Shown piece by piece: positions 1,952-64,000 of a stretch of 64,000 nucleotides of DNA (its first letter is position 1; the number at the start of each line of letters is the position of its first letter). Below the pieces are notes generated by a model. The model was not told where the DNA came from. It saw nothing but the letters and a program-made list of their open reading frames with translations, and made no database searches. The DNA is from Candidatus Paraprochloron terpiosi LD05 (lineage in GTDB: Bacteria; Cyanobacteriota; Cyanobacteriia; Cyanobacteriales; Prochloraceae), in NCBI GenBank assembly GCA_018141785.1, contig CP073341.1, forward strand, positions 2,279,422-2,343,421, given 5' to 3'. The translations under genes were made by a program, and so were the position numbers.

Positions 1952-3373
1952 TTATACGTCGTAGTAAAGAGCAAACTCATAGGGATGAGGGCGCAAACGC
2001 ATGGGGTTGACTTCATTATCCAGTTTGTACTCAATCCAGTTTTCGATAAAGTCTTCGGTAAACACCCCGGTATCTGTCAAGAAACTATGGTCTTTGTCTA
2101 AGTTTTCTAGGGCTGCTTCTAAAGAACTGGGGGTGGAAGGAATTTTGCTCAACTCCTCCGGGCTGAGGTCATAGATATCCACATCCAGAGATTTTCCGGG
2201 GTCGATTTCGTTCTTAATCCCATCAATACCAGCGCAGAGCATGGCTGCAAAGGCGAGATATGGGTTGCAAGTAGCATCGGGACAGCGGAACTCTAGACGC
2301 TTCGCTTTGGGATTAGGACCAGATAAGGGAATTCGGATGGAGGCAGAACGGTTACCTTGAGAGTATGCTAGGTTCACCGGAGCTTCAAAACCAGGTACTA
2401 AACGCTTGAAGGAATTAGTACTAGGATTAGTCAATGCTAATAGAGCAGGTGCGTGTTTGAGAAGACCCCCGATGTAGTTAAGAGCCATTTTGCTCAAATT
2501 GGCGTAGCCATCGCCCCAGAATAGGGGTTTGCCATCTTTCCAGATAGACTGGTGGGTGTGCATCCCACTCCCATTATCGTTAAATAGAGGCTTGGGCATG
2601 AAAGTAACGGTTTTGCCGTATTTCTTGCCCACATTTTTAATGACGTATTTATAAGTCATCAAATAATCAGCCGCCTGAATAATGGGGGCAAAGCGGAAAC
2701 CTAGTTCATTCTGTCCCCCTGTGGCTACTTCATGATGGTGTTTTTCAATGGGTACGCCGCAACGAGCCATGGTTAATAGCATTTCCGTGCGCATATCTTG
2801 CAGAGTGTCTGTGGGGGGGACGGGGAAATAACCCTCTTTGTAGCGAGGTTTATATCCCAGGTTGCCTCCTGATTCTTCGCGACCGGAATTCCAGCGACCT
2901 TCTACACTGTCTACATAATAGTAGCTCTGACTTTCGGTTTGGTCAAAACGAACATCGTCAAAAACGAAGAATTCTGCTTCGGGACCAAAATAGGCAACAT
3001 CCCCGATCCCACTGTTTTTCAGGAACTTAAGTGCTTTTTGCGCAATACTCCTCGGATCCCGACTGTACCACTCTCCGGTGCGTGGTTCCTTAATGGAACA
3101 GATCATGCTCAAGGTTTTTTCTTTCATGAAGGGGTCGATCCACGCAGTAGTAGGATCGGGAACCATTGCCATGTCCGATTCGTTGATTGCTTTCCAACCC
3201 CGAATACTGGAACCGTCGAAGGGAACACCGTCTTCAAAGGAACTTTCGTCAATTTGGTCTTTGTAGAAAGAACAGTGTTGCCAGATCCCTGGCATATCGA
3301 TGAATTTTAGGTCGATAATCTCAATGTCCTGGTCTTGAATCATAAACAAGACTTCAGCAGCAGTTTCCGCCAT
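1952..3373 (-). CDS. glnA: type I glutamine synthetase
   Basis: A 473-residue protein with the full GS-I architecture: an N-terminal beta-grasp region, then metal and ATP site blocks such as [14 protein letters not shown], the [14 protein letters not shown] segment, NRSASIRIP and the RLEFRCPD block near the end. It makes glutamine from glutamate, ammonia and ATP in the cytoplasm, the entry step of the GS-GOGAT cycle. Length matches other cyanobacterial GlnA proteins. Start ATG at 3373. A near-perfect NtcA-dependent promoter lies just upstream (separate entry), so expression should rise under nitrogen limitation. Confidence 0.97.
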
Positions 3374-3415
3374 GGTTTCTTCCTTAAATTTAAAAGATAT
3401 TTCAACTGTCGCATT

Positions 3416-3458
3416 ATCCTAGGGAGTGGAATGGGAGGAATTTTGTATCCAGTGTTAC
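3416..3458 (-). promoter_or_regulatory. NtcA-activated promoter of glnA
   Basis: A perfect NtcA box GTA-N8-TAC (3445-3458, palindromic so valid on the minus strand) is followed on the minus strand, after 23 bases, by TAGGAT (3421-3416), matching the TAN3T -10 element. The GTAN8TAC-N22/24-TAN3T arrangement is the textbook class II NtcA promoter, and it points at glnA. Confidence 0.85.
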
Positions 3459-3606
3459 AGAATTGCCAGTCAAAATTGGTGGGAAACCTGTAGATTTTGC
3501 AAAAATGTATTGAATTATACAGTTTTTCAAATTTCTCCCTCTATGGGATGATAGAGAGATAACCAAAAATAACTTGCATAAAAATTGCTGTTGGGAGAAA
3601 CTTTTA

Positions 3607-4116
3607 ATGCGAGACGCTGTTACTAGTCTGATCAGCAAATATGATATTACTGGTCGTTACTTAGATCGGAATGCTTTCGACGATCTGAAATCCTACTTTG
3701 AATCTGGCATGGCACGAATTGCCGCTGCCCAGATAATCAATGCTAATTCCGCCACCATTGTCAGGGACGCCAGTGCTAAGCTGTTTGAAGAAGTACCGGA
3801 ACTGCTTCGTCCCGGGGGCTATGCCTATACCACTCGGCGCTATTCTGCCTGTCTGCGGGATCTGGACTATTACTTGCGCTATGCAAGTTATGCCCTGGTT
3901 GCCGGGGATATGAATATTCTGGACGAACGAGTATTGCAGGGATTACGGGAAACTTACAATTCTTTGGGGGTACCTATTGGTCCCACCGTTGTGGGTATTC
4001 AGCTGATGAAGGATATGGTTAAAGAAATGGCGACAGAAGCAGGAGTGGAAGATACGGCTTTTGTGGATGCACCTTTTGACTATATGAGTCGGGAGTTGAG
4101 CGAAATTTCTGTTTAA
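3607..4116 (+). CDS. apcF: allophycocyanin beta-18 subunit
   Basis: A 169-residue phycobiliprotein starting MRDAVTSLI, with the chromophore cysteine in RRYSACLRDLDYYLRYASYA and the C-terminal FDYMSRELSEISV typical of ApcF rather than ApcB. It is a core component of the phycobilisome near the terminal emitter. I choose ATG 3607 over an upstream in-frame start because it aligns with the family and is preceded by GGGAGAAA. The residue at the site that is usually the methylated asparagine (GGN-AYTTRR) is tyrosine here (GGYAYTTRR). It diverges from glnA. Confidence 0.93.
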   Translation: MRDAVTSLISKYDITGRYLDRNAFDDLKSYFESGMARIAAAQIINANSATIVRDASAKLFEEVPELLRPGGYAYTTRRYSACLRDLDYYLRYASYALVAGDMNILDERVLQGLRETYNSLGVPIGPTVVGIQLMKDMVKEMATEAGVEDTAFVDAPFDYMSRELSEISV

Positions 4117-58475: not shown

Positions 58476-59496
58476 ATGGTGGTAGCAACTCCCATCAAAA
58501 CAGCAAAACGCTTAACTATACAGACAGAAGCCATCGGCACCAATACTACCGCTATTCGCTCTCTAGACTGGGATAGGGATAGGTTCGACATTGAATTTGG
58601 CCTGCAAAACGGCACCACCTACAACTCCTACCTCATTCGCGGGGAGAAAACTGCCCTAGTAGATACCTCCCACGGAAAGTTCCGCCAACTCTATCTGGAT
58701 ACCCTAACTGGTATCATAGAACCCACAGCCATCGACTATCTGGTAATCAGTCACACGGAACCAGATCACAGCGGCTTAGTGAAAGACTTGCTGGAATTAG
58801 CTCCCGAAATAGTGGTGGTAGGTTCCAAAGTAGCAATTCAATTCCTGGAAGACTTAGTTCACCAACCCTTCCAACGGCAAATCGTCAAAAACGGCAATAC
58901 CCTAGATTTAGGTAAAGGCCATGTGTTAGAATTCGTTAACGCCCCTAACCTCCATTGGCCCGATACTATCTTCTCCTACGACCGCGCTACAGAAACTCTC
59001 TTCAGCTGCGACGCCTTTGGTATGCACTACTGTTCTCATAGCCTTTTTGATGAGGATTTAGAAGCCATAGAACCAGATTACCGCTTTTATTATGAATGTT
59101 TAATGGCACCCAATGCCCGCTCCGTCCTTTCAGCCATGAAGCGCATGGACAAATTGGGAACCATTACCACCGTCGCCAATGGACACGGTCCAGTATTGCG
59201 CCACAATGTAGCAGAACTCCTGAGTTGTTATCGCAGTTGGAGCGAAGCACAGGCAAAAGCAGAGAAGACAGCAGCTGTCTTTTATATTTCTGACTACGGT
59301 TGGTGCGATCGCCTCTCCCAAGCCGTTGCTAAAGGCATTACTAAAGCCGGGGTAGGGGTAGAAATGGTAGATTTGAAATCCGCCGACAGTCACGAAGTGC
59401 AAGAATTAGTTAGTCGAGCAGCAGCACTAGCTATCGCTATGCCCCCCTTATCAGGGAGTCATCATCAAGAGATAGCCAGTAACATGGGAGCCATAT
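58476..59496 (+). CDS. flv3: diflavin flavoprotein Flv3, exon 1
   Basis: 340 codons plus one base. Covers the metallo-beta-lactamase di-iron domain with all canonical ligands (ISHTEPDHSGL, LHWPDTIF, SCDAFGMHY, NGHGPVLR) and most of the flavodoxin domain (VFYISDYGWCDRLSQAVAK). The retained ligand set and close sequence likeness point to Flv3, which with Flv1 reduces O2 to water downstream of photosystem I. The frame is cut by a group II intron after ATAT at 59496; spliced to 61944 it continues ILAAANKKQAIGMFESYGG with no change, total 576 residues. Confidence 0.93.
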
Positions 59497-61943
59497 GCGC
59501 GGCCTGAACTGGTCGTTTAGTACGGGACATCGAGTCCCCTAGGGAGTTCCACCCCTAGCCCTCACGGAAAAGACTCTATGAGTCCGGTCACGGCGGGAGT
59601 AAGTAATAAAACCGTTGGAATGCAGACCCCGAAAGTAACCGAAGCCCTAGAGATTAAGGGTCAGGAGCAAGAGGGAAATAGCTGGAAGGCTGAACGAAAG
59701 TGAAGTAAAAGGATTCGCCTTCAACGAATCCCTCCGTATAAACCTCGTGACCCATGAAAGGCGAAATTATCTCTGATACGCCTTAGCCAAAATGGCAAGT
59801 AGACAGGAACTGACACTATATGGTTATCAGTTCGGGAAGAATTGATACTGGAGTATTATCAATTCGGGGAACCAGAGCGCTACCGGGGGAAAGGAACCAG
59901 CCTAACCAGTTAAGAAAACTAAGCGAAACAACAGGATAAGCCCTACAGAGTCTAACGGAGGGTCGAGTCCGTTAGTAAGCCAAAGGTAACGGAGGCAGAA
60001 TTCTCTGGAGGGTAAAGGATGAGTGAAAAAGCGAATGCTCCCTTGTAATGAGGGAGATAGGGGTTCAAAATTTGCCCTTGACCGAAAGGAATAGCAGACT
60101 TCACTTGGGTCTCATACGAAAATTGAAGACAACTAGAAACCAAACGAACGGAAAAGTTAGATGACGGAAGAAATTCCCGAAAATGGACTGAACGGACAAT
60201 TAACTGAGTGGGGCGACATTAACTGGCGTCGCACAAAAAAGATTGTTAGGAATTTACGCGGTCGGATATTTCGTGCCCAAAAGCTTGGACTGTGGAGACG
60301 ATTACTGTCTTTACAGAAACTGATGAAAAGATGTCGGTCGAACCTATTACTGAGCATCAGACAAATCACACAGGTAAATACCGGAAAACGAACAGCGGGG
60401 GTAGATAAGGAGGTCATAGACACCCCAGCACAGCGTGTGAAACTTGCCAATAACTGGGAAATGCCCAAGGCAAAACCTGCCAGACGGGTATACATTCCTA
60501 AAGCGAATGGTAAGAAACGTCCTCTTGGAATCCCAACCATCAGAGATAGAGTCGCTCAGGCAATAGTCAAAAATGCACTGGAACCCGAATGGGAGGCCAA
60601 GTTTGAAGCTAACTCCTATGGCTTCAGACCCGGTCGAAGTTGCCTAGATGCTATTGGACAATGTTTCAGTAGACTACGCGGCGACTATAAAACGAAGACC
60701 GGAACATGGCGAAAGCACGATAAATGGGTTTTGGACGCTGATATCAAAGGCTTCTTTGACAACATTGACCATAAATCCATCCAGACAGCAGTCAGGGAAA
60801 ATACCTTGGTTGATGGATGGTTAAAAGCTGGATCTATCGAGAGTAAGAAGGGATATAGCCCAACTGAAAAAGGAACTCCACAGGGTGGCGTAATAAGTCC
60901 TTTGTTAGCAAATATCGGACTCCACGGGTTAGAAACATATATCAAAGAATGTAACCCAAAGGTAGGCGTCATCAGGTACGCAGATGATTTCGTAGTCACT
61001 GCAAAGGACAAGGAATCCTTGGAGGAATTGAAAATCCAGATAAATCAATGGCTGTCAGAACGAGGTCTTGAGATTAGTGATGAGAAGACGCGGATAGTAC
61101 ATTTAAGAGACGGATTTGATTTCCTGGGGTTTAACTTGAGACACTATGAGGTGAAAGGAGAAGATAAAATCCTACGGGATAAACTAATCATTGAGCCACA
61201 GAAGTCAAAGGTATTAGAACTCTGCAAGAAAGTCGGTGCAACCATCGACAGCATGAAAACAAAAACCCCAGAACAGAGTCATCCGCAAGATAGAACCGCT
61301 TCTCAGAGGTTTTGCGAATTACTACAGAGGAGTATGCAGCAAAGAAACCTTTTCATATATACACAACCGAGTATGGTGGTACCTCTGGCGTTGGGCAAAA
61401 AGACGACACCCCAAAAAATCACGAAAATGGGTAAAAGAAAAGTACTTCCGAACAACGGGCGAAAGAAATTGGGTGTTTTTCTACGAAGGTAATGACCGGA
61501 GGGGCAAAAGAATAGTACATAACTTGTACAATATAAAAACTGTCCCGATTGAAAGACATATCAAAGTTAAGGGAGCTTATTCCCCAGACGACCCCGAACA
61601 GGTGGAATATTGGTCAAAGCGGCGAACGAAGTCGGGCAAGATTATATGGTCTAAAGGCTCAAAATACGAAAACGTTGGAAAGTCGCAAGATTGGAAATGC
61701 CCAATCTGCCACGACCACCTCTTCAACGGGGAGGAAATCGAAACCCATCACATAGTACCTATAAGGGATGGAGGTTCTGACGATATCGACAACCTTCAAC
61801 ACCTACATAAAACGTGTCATAAGCAGGTACATTCAAGAAAATTCCAAGCAGGGCTTGAAGTGAGGCTTGAGCCGGATGATAGGAAACTGTCACGTCCGGT
61901 TCTTAGGGGAGGGGATGGAAGCGATTCCTGAACCTTACCCGAC
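59497..61943 (+). mobile_element. group II intron 3, inside flv3
   Basis: Begins GCGCGGCCTGAAC and ends CCTTACCCGAC (AC at the 3' end). These limits are fixed by the flv3 reading frame on both sides. A domain V-like CACGTCCGGTTCTTAGGG precedes the end. It belongs to a different subgroup from introns 1 and 2 (maturase sequence clearly distinct). The first bases deviate from the GTGYG consensus by one base. It must splice for Flv3 to be made. Confidence 0.92.
60161..61931 (+). CDS. ltrA: group II intron maturase of intron 3, frameshifted
   Basis: ATG 60161. RT core with GTPQGGVISPLLANIGLHGL and VIRYADDFVVTAKD, domain X start (FDFLGFNLRHYEVKGED). At the C-run 61266-61269 one extra base shifts the frame, after which the expected RVIRKIEPLLRGFANYYRGV continues in the next frame to WVFFYEGND and a C-terminal HNH domain (CPICHDHLFNGEEIETHHIV) ending at 61931. 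Restoring one C gives about 590 residues. A homopolymer error is possible; if real, splicing would need a maturase from elsewhere. Confidence 0.85.
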
Positions 61944-62653: not shown

Positions 62654-62871
62654 AGGGTTTGAGGTTTGGGGTTTCATATTTTAGGAATTTGACCCCAAAT
62701 CTTATTATATACTATAATTGAAAGGTGAGGGTATATGAAAAGTCAAATGACAATGATTTATTGGAAAAGCGAAAGGTTTTGGCTAGGTAAACTCCTTTAA
62801 CATCCAAAAATTATGAAAATTTCAAAGATGCTTATTTAATGATGCTCATGGAATAAGATAGAATAAAACTC

Positions 62872-63966
62872 ATGAAGTTTGAGTGGAGTGAAAACAAGGC
62901 TGTGGCAAATCTATCAAAGCATAGAGTCTCATTTGAGGAAGCAACAACTGTTTTTGATGATCCTCTTTTTGTTGACTTCTATGACCCAGACCATTTTGCC
63001 GATGAGGAGCGATACCTTATTGTTGGAGAATCAAACCGTAGGAAATTATTAATCGTGTCCTATACTGAAAGAGCAACTTCAATTCGCATCATCAGTGCAA
63101 GAGAAGTGACTCCATCTGAACGAGAATCTTATGAGGAGGATTGTAAATCAATGAAAAATGAATTTGAACGATTAGGTTTAGATCCAGATTATTTCAGACG
63201 TCTTATAAATATAAACAATATTAAAGCATTTTTTCAGGAACTTATTCGGCCAATAGCAAGTTTGAAACATCAAAGACCTGGCTCCATTGAGTTTCACAGA
63301 TGGAAACGTAATGTCGAAGAGCAACTTGGACAACCACAAATAGATAGCGAAAGATATTTGCAGGAATTCAGCAATATCGACTTTGACAAGAACTATGAAT
63401 CTGCTCTGAACGAGGCCCAAGTCTTATTTCAGTCATATAGAGATAATCTAATCAACTCTAAGCCAGCAACAATGAAACAGCAAAACTCCTCCGTCAGTCC
63501 ACGAACAAACGATATTTTCATTGTTCATGGACATGATGAAGAAATGAAGCAAGCAGTAGCCAGAACTCTAGAGAGACTTAAGCTCAAGCCCATTATTCTT
63601 CATGAACAACTTAATCAAGGTGCCACGATCATTGAAAAGTTTGAGAAAAATGCTAATGTTCAATTCGCAATTATTTTGCTTTCACCTGATGATATTGGCT
63701 ACCTAAAAACAGAAGGTTCTGAAAAGGCTCAACCACGGGCAAGGCAGAATGTAATTCTTGAATTAGGGTATTTTATTGGTAAACTTTCCAGAGCTAAAGT
63801 TTTTGTACTAAAGCGAGATAATGAAAAGGATGAATTAGAATTGCCAACAGATATAAATGGGATTACTTATACCTCATATGACTCAGGTGATAGTTGGAAA
63901 TCGAAATTATTTCAGGAACTAAAAGCCACGGGCTATAATGTTGATGCAAATGATTTATTTACCTAA
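62872..63966 (+). CDS. BrnT-like toxin domain fused to a CAP12-type TIR-like domain
   Basis: 364 residues, one open frame. Residues 1-88 match BrnT (MKFEWSENKAVANLSKHRVS, FEEATTVFDDPLFVDFYDPD, EERYLIVGES, IRIISAREVTPSERESYE), a RelE-fold ribonuclease toxin. Residues about 105-205 are a helical linker (FHRWKRNVEEQLGQ). Residues 218-345 match the TIR-like nucleotide-binding domain (DIFIVHGHDEEMKQAVARTL, KFEKNANVQFAIILLSPDDI, NVILELGYFIGKLSRAKVFV), with the glutamate of ELGYF in the NADase position. BrnT is normally followed by BrnA; none is here. Probably an anti-phage or toxin protein. Confidence 0.8.
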   Translation: MKFEWSENKAVANLSKHRVSFEEATTVFDDPLFVDFYDPDHFADEERYLIVGESNRRKLLIVSYTERATSIRIISAREVTPSERESYEEDCKSMKNEFERLGLDPDYFRRLININNIKAFFQELIRPIASLKHQRPGSIEFHRWKRNVEEQLGQPQIDSERYLQEFSNIDFDKNYESALNEAQVLFQSYRDNLINSKPATMKQQNSSVSPRTNDIFIVHGHDEEMKQAVARTLERLKLKPIILHEQLNQGATIIEKFEKNANVQFAIILLSPDDIGYLKTEGSEKAQPRARQNVILELGYFIGKLSRAKVFVLKRDNEKDELELPTDINGITYTSYDSGDSWKSKLFQELKATGYNVDANDLFT

Positions 63967-64000
63967 CAAGTTGGTCTCACGCCGCTGACCTCAAGGTCTT

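Follow-up and report, generated by a model that had tools for sequence, protein, structure and literature searches.

A single-chain BrnT–TIR protein in a cyanobacterial genome and its possible origin from a brnT–brnA operon

The analysed stretch of 64,000 nucleotides (the window) contains an ORF (62872–63966) that encodes a BrnT toxin domain and a CAP12-type TIR domain in a single chain of 364 aa. In the closest named relative of the window genome, the cyanobacterium Candidatus Paraprochloron terpiosi SP5CPC1, two adjacent genes stand in its place; the brnT stop codon and the recognisable brnA sequence have been lost in the window, and BrnT and TIR form one chain. We regard it as probable, if not strongly so, that a TIR gene of the PDC-S35 type entered a brnT–brnA operon and that this led to a lineage-specific fusion, most likely an abortive-infection effector of the TIR kind. 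The locus may have captured a possible new defence protein in the course of its making, from a toxin–antitoxin (TA) operon through an antitoxin–TIR chimera to a toxin–TIR chain, in one lineage of symbiotic cyanobacteria and with TIR as a probable cell-suicide enzyme.

The fused ORF, its domains and the signals described with it lie on the forward strand. The ORF begins with ATG and has no internal stop codon. Residues 5–83 (62884–63120) match the BrnT_toxin family (PF04365) over positions 1–77 of the 77 in the profile, with a score of 85.3 bits (Pfam cut-off 34.5), and residues 215–337 (63514–63882) match the CAP12-PCTIR_TIR family of CAP12/Pycsar-type TIR domains (PF10137) with a score of 133.7 bits (cut-off 24.7). 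A preliminary description of the window had proposed one uninterrupted frame joining the two domains and an HMM check of both halves; the frame is indeed open throughout, and both scores are far above the cut-offs. The K16, H17, and R72 residues, reported as important for the toxicity of the B. abortus BrnT (PMC13284704), are retained at the same positions in the BrnT half. In the TIR half, the glutamate of the NVxxE(F/L)G motif is present (E297 in NVILELG) and aligns with the glutamate of NVVFEFG in Cap12. Residues 133–362 were assigned by PADLOC to the PDC-S35 candidate defence family (best E about 1e-72), and two models of this family are matched near full length: PDLC05005 (positions 21–262 of 264) and PDLC05007 (positions 76–277 of 278). 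The match begins in the helical region of the PDC-S35 TIR protein (63205–63513). In the predicted structure of the fusion, residues 1–88 (BrnT, pLDDT mostly above 80–90) and about 210–363 (TIR) are modelled confidently, the helical linker between them has low confidence, and a helix traverses the junction. A Foldseek search with the predicted structure found the BrnT proteins of Salmonella (7vd7) and Brucella (3u97) and the TIR domain of SfSTING (7un8). A promoter-like site, TTGACC-18-TATAAT (62689–62718; 11 of 12 positions, a consensus match only), is located about 154 bp 5′ of the fused ORF and is unchanged in the relative.

In the locus of SP5CPC1 (L009; identical to the sequence G002:C181 of a same-genus genome), brnT encodes 91 aa (2634–2909) and is followed, 2 nt past its stop codon, by a TIR gene encoding 289 aa (2912–3781). 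Both loci share a flavodiiron gene on the 5′ side and a kinase-like gene on the 3′ side. Up to and including brnT, the two loci are about 96–96.5% identical; past the junction, the value is about 92–94.5%. The junction itself takes about 65 nt in the window (63139–63204, residues about 90–111) versus about 117 nt in the sister locus, with little similarity between the two; the sister has the brnT stop codon and the N-terminal codons of brnA there. An AGGAGG motif (63134–63139) followed by an in-frame ATG (63151, M94; the whole element occupies 63134–63153) can be noted at the junction, and the same AGGAGG stands before the separate TIR start in the sister locus. M94 could yield a TIR-only product as a possible internal start, with a long spacing of 11 nt between the two elements.

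The sister TIR gene, itself a PDC-S35 candidate, opens with about 28–36 codons of brnA. The start of its protein (MEDELRREYDLKSLEVRRLGAARKSFGG) is identical at 18–22 of 28 positions to the antitoxin starts of five cyanobacteria and at 14 of 28 to the distant locus L026; its score with the brnA-like profile is 38.1 bits, a value that none of 485 shuffled sequences reached. Given this resemblance, TIR has taken the place of the C-terminal part of the antitoxin in the sister locus. The window junction shows no significant similarity to the same brnA-like profile (−0.7 bits). The linker of the window was also considered as a brnA homologue on the basis of a short likeness ('DCKSM..ERLG' and 'DLKSL..RRLG') and was rejected, its score being within the shuffled range.

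The nearest relatives of the BrnT half, found in other cyanobacteria, are 71–77% identical to it and are located in ordinary brnT–brnA operons. Such pairs are present in six close relatives and in a more divergent seventh, L026. With the first ATG taken as the start codon, the reading frame of the antitoxin gene in the relatives overlaps that of brnT by 14 nt. None of the Pfam and NCBIfam antitoxin models recognise this small protein, and we therefore call it brnA-like. A profile of the cyanobacterial antitoxins matches annotated BrnA with an hhalign E value of 2e-4, and the YDF and RL(D/E)xDV motifs are common to both. The predicted structure of the antitoxin has low confidence, and no useful match came from a sequence search for solved structures of BrnA.

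The cognate brnA that lies directly 3′ of brnT in BrnTA systems was not found 3′ of the fusion, including the DNA beyond position 64000; the absence of a visible antitoxin in the preliminary description is thus confirmed by the adjoining sequence. The sole antitoxin match in the window genome is 33% identical and adjoins another brnT. The antitoxin of the fusion would be missing because brnA was truncated and overwritten by the TIR gene. The stretch 3′ of the fusion (L005:4598–6008, corresponding to 64176–65586 in window numbering) contains a zeta/AAA kinase-like ORF, a short gp49-like ORF, and an HTH ORF; it is rich in TA genes and has members that are apparently broken.

This brnT and TIR locus was found in two genomes only, and the fused state in the window genome alone. 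Neither a fusion nor a BrnT gene followed by a TIR gene was found outside the genus in 386 genomes of the phylum or in 391 genomes of the order, two samples that overlap, nor in 299 genomes of the phylum of Chengkuizengella; overall, the search covered about 1,000 genomes and a local scan of the fetched loci. None of the plasmid and phage records covers 80% of the fusion query in one place, and no relative of the fusion was found among viral contigs. A widespread BrnT–TIR family was rejected on these grounds, as no fusion or pair in this order was found beyond the genus in the genomes searched, nor in plasmid or phage records at 80% coverage. No sequenced equivalent of the single chain was found, nor a published one in the open-access literature, in agreement with the preliminary description, which knew of no such protein and had suggested looking for the same fusion in other genomes. 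The proposal that two active toxins represent a general new defence design finds no support, the fusion being confined, within the genomes and records searched, to one cyanobacterial genus in which the sister has two genes. One candidate relative, a 367-aa frame (L077), was rejected as it has no BrnT. On a plasmid of Photobacterium toruni (L053:5662–7145), a PDC-S35-like TIR gene is located just 5′ of an intact brnT–brnA pair. This arrangement was rejected as an equivalent since the gene order differs, and its TIR-first order is read as proximity in a TA-rich region.

The window and sister loci differ in an unusual way. In the TIR part, counted from GSIEFH, 44 differences are nonsynonymous and 2 synonymous (P 0.002 by the uniform neutral count); nonsynonymous change reaches 8.1% there, whereas the local neutral rate is 2.2% (P 8e-7). 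The adjoining flavodiiron gene (flv) is strongly constrained, with 3 nonsynonymous and 13 synonymous differences, and the comparison of BrnT plus TIR with this gene gives a Fisher P of 3e-9. These values come from a simple Nei–Gojobori count on one genome pair. They suggest that the TIR part has been evolving adaptively, and such amino-acid-biased divergence marks it as a likely arms-race gene. BrnT has 10 nonsynonymous differences and 1 synonymous (P 0.28 by count and a borderline P of 0.056 versus the local rate); purifying selection on it was not detected in the window–sister pair, and this half could be either adapting or relaxed. In addition, the S42F and R81P substitutions of the window BrnT fall at positions that are invariant among its closest relatives.

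A diversity-generating retroelement was considered as the cause of this divergence and was rejected. No adenine bias was found among the substitution types in the window–sister comparison, the changes do not cluster at adenines, and the reverse transcriptase encoded nearby is that of a group II intron. This intron (59495–61943; Rfam RF00029 at 61867–61943) splits the flavodiiron/flavin reductase gene of the window around residues 341–343; the sister genome has an unbroken copy of this gene. Its reverse transcriptase (60161–61492) and HNH (61473–61931) ORFs are in separate, overlapping frames; therefore, the intron protein may be frameshifted.

The origin of the fusion can be pictured as two steps. 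In the first, a TIR gene would have replaced the C-terminal part of brnA, its putative DNA-binding half, to give brnT and, behind it, a chimeric brnA(N-terminus)–TIR gene, an arrangement still found in the sister genome. In the second, the window lineage would have lost the stop codon of brnT and what remained of brnA, so that the promoter of the former TA operon would now drive BrnT and TIR as a single chain. As the locus is carried by two genomes only, we infer by parsimony that the two-gene state came before the fusion. As for function, membership of the TIR family suggests that an infection cue would cause the TIR domains to assemble and to consume NAD+, probably ending in abortive infection. 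The BrnT half would be either a retained second warhead with RNase activity or a module converted to regulation or assembly.

The single frame could in principle be an assembly or sequencing artefact that merged two genes, as the sister genome does have two, and the preliminary description had named a frameshift or misassembly near 63130–63180 as a possible flaw. This is very improbable: the locus lies within a single 3.84-Mb contig, its neighbour genes are collinear with those of the sister except for the intron, and the divergent, shorter tract at 63130–63210 shows numerous substitutions together with about 50 nt of net loss rather than one indel, which indicates a true local difference and not a one-base slip. 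In a rather unlikely reading, the TIR half would do the work and BrnT would be a decaying passenger, read through since its stop codon was lost, with TIR possibly being made mainly from M94. The lack of purifying selection on BrnT also fits decay, as do the changes at two invariant positions, the internal AGGAGG and ATG, and the disappearance of the antitoxin. However, all 364 codons have remained open, the three key BrnT residues are intact, and the model gives a confident BrnT fold (pLDDT above 90) and a helix that spans the junction.

Both halves might also be active warheads, RNase and NADase, silent until infection, with the linker possibly covering the BrnT active site instead of the antitoxin. 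The key residues of both families are present, and BrnT–BrnA single-chain fusions exist in nature, 28 prokaryotic ones being listed in Gerdes 2025 (PMC11980606); nevertheless, a linker that has no recognisable brnA sequence and is modelled at low confidence makes this quite doubtful. Somewhat less doubtful, but still unlikely, is a bolder version of the preferred explanation, by which a TA operon was rebuilt as a TIR defence system: the DNA-binding half of the antitoxin would have been swapped for an NADase, the brnA(N)–TIR protein of the sister would be kept in an inert complex by BrnT, and the window would encode a single-chain RNase and NADase that evolves fast under phage pressure. Should such a chimera work, it would show how the N-terminal segment of an antitoxin can take on the control of a suicide enzyme to which it is unrelated.

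When compared with known systems, the fusion has the PF10137 family domain, the glutamate motif, and the 7un8 fold match in common with the Cap12/TIR-STING and PycTIR effectors of CBASS and Pycsar. Unlike Cap12/TIR-STING, it has neither a STING nor another cyclic-nucleotide sensor domain (no sensor was matched in the Pfam and NCBIfam searches) and no nearby cyclase, and its NCBIfam Cap12 score is 38.6, with a cut-off of 450. The assignment to CBASS Cap12 was rejected for lack of a sensor domain and of a cyclase nearby; the relation to CBASS given in the preliminary description holds for the TIR domain but not for the full protein, which belongs with PDC-S35. A single SMODS cyclase gene was found in the genome, a CD-NTase (PF18144; G000:C1:1513278–1513751, L083); it is about 830 kb away and possibly belongs to a separate CBASS. 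The PDC-S35 candidates, annotated as nucleotide-binding proteins, match residues 133–362 of the fusion; many plasmid relatives are stand-alone genes, which, in contrast to the fusion, start with an N-terminus of their own and lack BrnT. With the type II BrnT/BrnA TA systems (PF04365), the fusion shares a complete BrnT domain with K16, H17, and R72; in these systems, brnA is present on the 3′ side, whereas it is truncated in the sister locus and unrecognisable in the window. The main text of Gerdes 2025 (PMC11980606), which describes the BrnT–BrnA single-gene fusions, does not mention TIR. In these fusions, as in the BrnT–TIR chain, BrnT forms the N-terminal portion of a longer polypeptide; their C-terminal partner is an RHH or HTH antitoxin, whereas in the BrnT–TIR chain it is a TIR protein.
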